Source: Halanaerobiaceae bacterium
Lineage (GTDB): Bacteria; Bacillota; Halanaerobiia; Halanaerobiales; Halarsenatibacteraceae
DNA: 42,333 nucleotides
NCBI GenBank assembly: GCA_003553485.1
Contig: PWEJ01000140.1
Coordinates: 1 to 42,333 of the forward strand
Reading direction: 5' to 3'
Program-made: the position numbers and the translations under genes
The notes under the pieces: generated by a model
The model's database searches: none
The model's input: the letters and a program-made list of their open reading frames with translations, nothing else
What the model was told of the DNA's origin: nothing
Part shown: positions 12,509-22,672 of the stretch, one piece after another
How positions within the stretch are numbered: the stretch's first letter is position 1
How the letters are laid out: every line of letters starts with the position of its first letter

Positions 12509-12537
12509 TTGACTTTCTAATTGATAATTGTTATTAT
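12509..12537 (+). promoter_or_regulatory. Promoter of the peroxiredoxin gene with PerR/Fur-like box
   Basis: TTGACT (12509-12514), a 17-base spacer and TATTAT (12532-12537) form a strong sigma-A promoter. Overlapping the -10 is TGATAATTGTTATTA (12522-12536). It matches 11 of the 14 specified positions of the PerR box (TTATAAT-N-ATTATAA), and matches the closely related Fur box about as well. Peroxide-responsive repression by PerR would suit a peroxiredoxin; this is inference. Confidence 0.6.
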
Positions 12538-12570
12538 TTAAGCAGAAAACATTTAAAGGAGGTCATTAGC

Positions 12571-13179
12571 ATGATCAAAGTTGGAGAAAAAGCCCCAAAT
12601 TTCACTACCAAAGCTTTTCATGAAGGAGATTTTAAAGACATCAGCCTGTCAGATTACGACGATCAATGGAAAATAGTCCTGTTTTATCCAGGAGATTTCA
12701 CCTTCGTCTGACCTACAGAGTTAACGGCAGTTGCCGTTAAATATGATAAGTTACAGGAACTTAATACTGAAATCCTTGCCATTAGCACAGATAGCCATTT
12801 CACTCACAAAGTATGGCAAGAACAGGAGCTTTCCCAGATGGTAGAGGGAGGGGTGCCCTATCCCCTGTTAGCAGATCCTGACGGCTCCATTGGTAAAGCC
12901 TATGCTGTTTATGATGATGATTTGAAAATGAATATTAGAGGCAGATTTTTAATAGATCCTGATGGTGTATTGCAAGCTGTGGAAATATTGAATGAGCCAG
13001 TGGGTAGAAACATGGATGAATTAGTGCGTCAGGTCGAAGCCTTCCAGCATATAAGAGAAAACGAAGAAGAAGCTACTCCTGCTGGTTGGGAACCAGGCCA
13101 AAAAACATTGAAGCCAGGTAAAGATTTAGTTGGTAAGGTATACGAAAACTGGGGAAAAGAAGAGCTGGAAATGAATTAA
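12571..13179 (+). CDS. prxU: Selenocysteine-containing AhpC-type peroxiredoxin
   Basis: Reduces peroxides through a peroxidatic residue. The reading frame starts at ATG 12571 after AAAGGAGG and is interrupted by one TGA (12709-12711) at codon 47. This is exactly where the AhpC family has its peroxidatic cysteine: PGDFTFV-U-PTE. Both flanks are intact family sequence (KAPNFTTKAF before, STDSHFTHKVW and the C-terminal TPAGWEPGQKTL after). The full product is 202 residues, the normal AhpC-type length, and a SECIS-like hairpin follows the TGA. I therefore read TGA as selenocysteine. The resolving cysteine of the family (VCPAxW) is replaced by Thr in EATPAGW, and there is no cysteine anywhere else, so the cycle must use an outside thiol. 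Sec-containing peroxiredoxins are known from anaerobes such as Eubacterium acidaminophilum. A conventional gene finder would call only 12838-13179. Confidence 0.93.
12721..12740 (+). promoter_or_regulatory. Bacterial SECIS element candidate
   Basis: TTAACGGC (12721-12728) and GCCGTTAA (12733-12740) form a perfect 8-bp stem with AGTT as loop. The loop begins 17 bases after the TGA, within the 16-37 base window accepted for bacterial SECIS, and has G in one of its first two loop positions. It lies inside the coding sequence, as bacterial SECIS elements do. Confidence 0.8.
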
Positions 13180-22499: not shown

Positions 22500-22672
22500 C
22501 AACTATAAACAGAGGAGACCGGGCAAGCCAGCCTCCTCTGTTCAAAAGTCCAGAGTTCCGTCCCTTCAGAATTCTTAAGCCTGAGAGTTTCAGTTCTTTT
22601 GAACCTTGCCCCTTCGGCGCTCTTATAATATTTGATATTTAAGAGCTCTCTCCTGAATTTCAACCGGATTAG
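22500..22672 (-). ncRNA. Glycine riboswitch (single aptamer) upstream of gcvT
   Basis: On the minus strand the leader contains AGGAGAGAGC, then GCGCCGAAGGGGCAAG and GAAACTCTCAGGC, the three most conserved glycine-aptamer blocks, in order and spacing. Only one aptamer is present. Downstream, AACAGAGGAG (22542-22533) pairs perfectly with CTCCTCTGTT (22517-22508), but no U-run follows this stem, so the switching mechanism is unclear. This accounts for most of the 361-base gap between gcvT and the TrkA-type gene; the rest is AT-rich and presumably holds the promoter, which I cannot place with confidence. Confidence 0.93.

Follow-up and report, generated by a model that had tools for sequence, protein, structure and literature searches.

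We found that the window, by which we mean the whole 42,333-nucleotide stretch of DNA analysed here, carries a lineage-specific second copy of the peroxiredoxin gene prxU from an uncultured Halanaerobiaceae-level bacterium. With a probability of about 85% we read it as a genuine selenoprotein gene that is decoded with the help of SelB and whose product would act as an externally reduced peroxidase with a single selenocysteine (Sec). The protein, here called PrxU-2, is a real and well-supported selenoprotein of the PrxU family with a modest new twist, as the family itself was already known and the new element is a second copy that has lost Cys37, a residue its relatives retain. Computation established the Sec decoding signals, the family, the fold, the selection and the absence of every candidate partner Cys. 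The features of the locus are given below in window positions.

12509..12537, plus strand: putative promoter, TTGACT, 17-nt spacer, TATTAT (read from the sequence)
12521..12536, plus strand: putative Fur-family operator TTGATAATTGTTATTA, lying over the promoter (0 mismatches)
12555..12562, plus strand: Shine-Dalgarno sequence AAAGGAGG, 8 nt ahead of ATG 12571 (read from the sequence)
12571..13179, plus strand: full coding sequence of the second prxU copy (PrxU-2), 202 residues with Sec at 47 (translation with TGA as U)
12679..12681, plus strand: codon 37, CTG (Leu), the place of the lost Cys37 (panel alignment)
12709..12711, plus strand: TGA for Sec 47, the peroxidatic position of PGDFTFVU (P-x3-T-x2-U; panel alignment and Sec machinery of the genome)
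12721..12740, plus strand: bSECIS-like hairpin with a perfect 8-bp stem, TTAACGGC-AGTT-GCCGTTAA (fold, recoding control and covariation)
13075..13077, plus strand: codon 169 (Thr), the site of the resolving Cys in Cys-type AhpC (alignment to AhpC)

The reading frame from ATG 12571 to the TAA at 13177-13179 is open except for one TGA at 12709-12711 (codon 47), and when TGA is translated as U there is no Cys codon across the 202 residues; both observations agree with the original prediction, which had described an otherwise intact frame and a Cys-free product. It had also foreseen that automated annotation would truncate the gene, and mechanical ORF calling did return only 12838-13179 (113 aa). 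Ordinary gene callers thereby halve PrxU-2, and reading through the TGA gains a well-supported selenoprotein; elsewhere, one Sec peroxiredoxin has been annotated as two ORFs (PMC5109826).

The TGA was placed in its family context with a panel of 77 Sec-PrxU and 11 Cys-AhpC sequences, gathered within the class, across the phylum and in the genome collection. The peroxidatic codon was TGA in all 77 PrxU rows, which come from several phyla, and Cys in all 11 AhpC rows. The Sec machinery, the presence of which was the test proposed with the original prediction, was found complete on contig C66 of the same genome: tRNA-Sec (70.7 bits, anticodon TCA), selA (590 bits), a full-length selB (360 bits) and selD (382 bits). 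TGA is the ordinary stop of 10 of the 37 window genes and is therefore not a general sense codon, which ruled out a general recoding of TGA. Two genes of the genome other than prxU also hold an in-frame TGA. One is selD itself (L022, G000:C66:970-1896), at its own catalytic position (SGUAAK), and the other is a PrxQ/Bcp-like gene (L004, G000:C59:4596-5042, contig C59), a probable further selenoprotein with TPGUT; the latter is like PrxU-2 in having Sec at the peroxidatic site, but belongs to another, shorter subfamily and gives just 46 bits to the PrxU model.

The predicted 8-bp hairpin with an AGTT loop was confirmed at 12721-12740, with its stem starting nine bases past the TGA and its loop 18 nt past the last TGA base. 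The fold has a free energy of -12.9 kcal/mol (z -3.6), none of 200 shuffles was as stable, and just 0.7% of the synonymous recodings of the same peptide folded as well. This was further supported by 26 distinct related sequences, picked for ungapped similarity in the hairpin stretch, where 86.5% of the stem cells were paired, 30 stem cells differed in both partners, against a shuffle mean of 11.2, and a covariation score of 0.38 was obtained that none of 500 shuffles reached; sliding the pairing partner by 1-3 columns lowered the score to 0.05-0.15. The apical loop is RGTY throughout these relatives, and no such stem was present in the Cys-type AhpC genes of this class. The canonical prxU of the same genome (L001) has a weaker hairpin, for which 38% of the synonymous recodings fold as well. 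A further group of PrxU genes (L108, L111, L113-L118) has CATA or TATA where others have RGTY; the modelled stem does not fit them, and their SECIS may have another architecture.

Comparison with same-genus orthologues gave pN 0.09-0.13 and pS 0.80-0.97 on the 5' side of the TGA, and pN about 0.12 and pS 0.76-0.86 on the 3' side. As the coding constraint is equal on either side, the two halves have been maintained as one protein, with an added constraint on the RNA, since the codons of the hairpin stretch show fewer synonymous changes (pS just 0.12-0.36). A pseudogene was ruled out by conservation together with purifying selection. If the TGA were a true stop, caused by a nonsense mutation or an assembly error, what remained would be a pseudogene or just the 113-residue C-terminal ORF from 12838, the only one that mechanical calling yields. 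We find this scarcely credible, because every PrxU from several phyla has TGA at the same codon, purifying selection does not differ between its two sides, the hairpin covaries and the genome is fully equipped for Sec insertion; in addition, ATG 12571 is preceded by a good Shine-Dalgarno sequence and the shorter ORF would begin within the fold, past the catalytic site. Taken together, the machinery, the covarying hairpin, the TGA in all relatives and the two-sided purifying selection back the originally predicted Sec at the peroxidatic site of PrxU-2, which on these sequence data we regard as strongly supported.

The read-through protein scored 308.4 bits against the equivalog model NCBIfam NF040737 (peroxi_PrxU, cut-off 270), aligning to model positions 35-232 of 233, and 206.7 bits against the AhpC equivalog TIGR03137, which is below the cut-off of 272. 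Its Pfam domains are AhpC-TSA and 1-cysPrx_C, and its AlphaFold model (pLDDT 91.5) found AhpC and 2-Cys peroxiredoxins as the best solved folds. PrxU-2 shares with PrxU (NF040737) the Sec at the peroxidatic site (TxxU), the AhpC fold, the hairpin past the UGA and the absence of the resolving Cys, but differs in having neither Cys37 nor an N-terminal GCxxP extension; as the curated cut-off was reached without it, we do not count Cys37 as a defining residue of PrxU. With AhpC and the typical 2-Cys peroxiredoxins (TIGR03137; PDB 1we0, 4mab) it shares the fold and aligns over the full length (identity to the AhpC of its class about 40%), whereas AhpC has Cys47, a resolving Cys in VCPAxW, Val at position 37 and no hairpin.

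Sec peroxiredoxins are established (PMC13188914, PMC1088965); the first description, cited in PMC13188914, was from Eubacterium acidaminophilum (Sohling et al. 2001, doi 10.1515/BC.2001.123). The Clostridium sticklandii Sec peroxiredoxin has Sec at 84 of 240 residues (PMC3091704), and PrxU goes up under stress (PMC7409299). Our search, which covered mainly freely accessible literature, found no paper that deals with Cys37, with the GCxxP extension or with a second copy free of Cys.

In PrxU-2 the alignment to AhpC showed ATPAGW where Cys-type AhpC has VCPAxW, as originally noted. From this a conversion of a 2-Cys into a 1-Sec enzyme had been proposed. The resolving Cys is indeed absent here (Thr169), but at position 169 it is missing in 75 of the 77 Sec-PrxU from several phyla and kept in only two, so its absence is a long-standing feature of the family that did not arise with PrxU-2. 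Judged from the panel alignment, the change that is specific to the PrxU-2 clade is instead the loss of Cys37, which stands ten residues before the Sec, is kept in 67 of the 77 Sec-PrxU and corresponds to Val in 10 of the 11 Cys-type AhpC; this loss may mean little. In 29 of 79 panel rows (L056, L059-L061, L073-L096 and others) the PrxU core is preceded by an N-terminal extension of about 35 residues with a conserved GC[QEVKI]xP, which PrxU-2 also lacks. These rows come from Bacillota, Chloroflexota, Thermodesulfobacteriota and Myxococcota, and the Cys of the motif is a possible partner for Sec. Most PrxU thus lack the classical resolving Cys but carry other candidate partners, Cys37 and in many the GCxxP motif, and PrxU-2 has neither.

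Apart from the Sec site, six of the 77 Sec-PrxU are Cys-free, five in the PrxU-2 clade and one, L110 (G359:C1:1667894-1668499), that is independent and from another family of the phylum, which makes two changes on the tree; in genome G359, L110 is the sole PrxU detected at E below 1e-60. Within the PrxU-2 clade, Cys165 is present in the second copies of G033 and G034. Cys makes up 0.63% of the residues in the window's proteins and 9 of the 37 genes are Cys-free, and with a chance of about 0.28 of having none, the plain absence of Cys is weak evidence; its informative part is the loss of the conserved Cys37.

In the tree, PrxU-2 falls into a clade (support 100/99) made up of seven second copies, one in each of seven genomes of the same family, mostly draft assemblies. 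This clade is joined loosely (82/50) to the canonical PrxU of Halanaerobiia. A canonical copy is also present in six of these genomes and was not found in the seventh, G036, which is a draft with 76% completeness. Clade-specific replacements in PrxU-2 are located at positions 37, 74, 112, 141, 142 and 171. The canonical and second copies are in tandem in G033, adjoining rplI, and of the two only the second has stayed beside rplI in the window's genus; the simplest reading would be a tandem duplication with later relocation of the canonical copy. A phage origin was rejected, as viral contigs held no related gene and all matches to phage records were below 60% identity.

The putative promoter of PrxU-2 is overlaid by a box that resembles Fur-family boxes. 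A TTGATAAYTGTTATYA palindrome is located 5' of all seven PrxU-2 genes (0-2 mismatches; besides the window at L027, L029, L033, L063, L065 and L067) and 5' of canonical prxU in G033 and G034 (0-1 mismatches); out of 300 shuffles, the number that matched equally well was 0-1 in each case. It was not there 5' of the canonical copies in the window's genus. A genome-wide regulon was rejected, since the box showed no enrichment (31 sites vs 28 for the reversed control), and what counts is therefore only its conserved position ahead of prxU. The flanks of the other sites, when read, held no evident oxidative-stress genes, and scans of the window with Fur and PerR consensus sequences came only slightly above chance. 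The genome encodes three FUR-family proteins. The box may function as an operator, and a connection with peroxide or iron is no more than a lead. Elsewhere in the window, a glycine riboswitch (RF00504, 55.8 bits) lies at 22559-22663 on the minus strand, just 5' of glycine cleavage genes.

The catalytic roles of Thr44 and Arg123 are established peroxiredoxin chemistry, and these residues and the catalytic Pro40 are all kept in PrxU-2, for which we infer peroxidase activity. In the pathway we propose, SelB with Sec-tRNA would decode UGA 47, aided by the hairpin just downstream, and Sec47, assisted by Thr44 and Arg123, would attack the peroxide and be converted to selenenic acid. As PrxU-2 is Cys-free, no internal selenyl-sulfide could form and an external thiol would have to reduce Sec47. 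Thioredoxin is probably this reductant and the likeliest donor, because thioredoxins are encoded in the genome, as are two thioredoxin reductases that score above cut-off. The result would be a 1-Sec cycle similar to the cycles of glutathione peroxidase and of 1-Cys peroxiredoxins. One orthologue (L065; G035, complement(1959-2558)) carries Pro instead of the catalytic Thr at position 44 (DFPFVU), which may be an assembly error, a polymorphism or a loss of activity.

AhpC-type proteins form decamers, and the match of the PrxU-2 fold to AhpC, together with the canonical copy found in six of the seven genomes, would allow mixed decamers in which a Cys of the partner subunit, the canonical PrxU with its Cys37, resolves the selenenic acid, so that PrxU-2 would not be Cys-independent in the cell. 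This we consider unlikely, as the canonical copy of the window's genus is without the operator-like box, which suggests separate expression, and the single PrxU detected in G359 (L110, E below 1e-60) is likewise Cys-free. Still less probable, in our view, is a second copy that has left turnover catalysis and serves as a peroxide sensor, a chaperone or a selenium store, for which a partner thiol would no longer be needed; the clade-specific replacements and the exchange of Thr44 for Pro in L065 would fit such a role, and the intact Pro40, Thr44 and Arg123 and the strong purifying selection on PrxU-2 speak against it.

With PrxU-2 read as an externally reduced 1-Sec peroxidase, a wider suggestion, which we make tentatively and at somewhat less than even odds, is that Halanaerobiaceae-level bacteria maintain, beside the ordinary PrxU, a specialised Sec peroxiredoxin that is entirely Cys-free and under its own regulation. 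Since Cys-free forms arose at least twice, in the PrxU-2 clade and in L110, the family may be able to run on a lone Sec, with no internal thiol. A comparison of both copies of one genome would be a direct test of the roles of Cys37 and the GCxxP Cys, and of whether a single selenol is sufficient. If true, PrxU-2 would be a natural model of peroxide reduction by one selenol alone on an AhpC scaffold.
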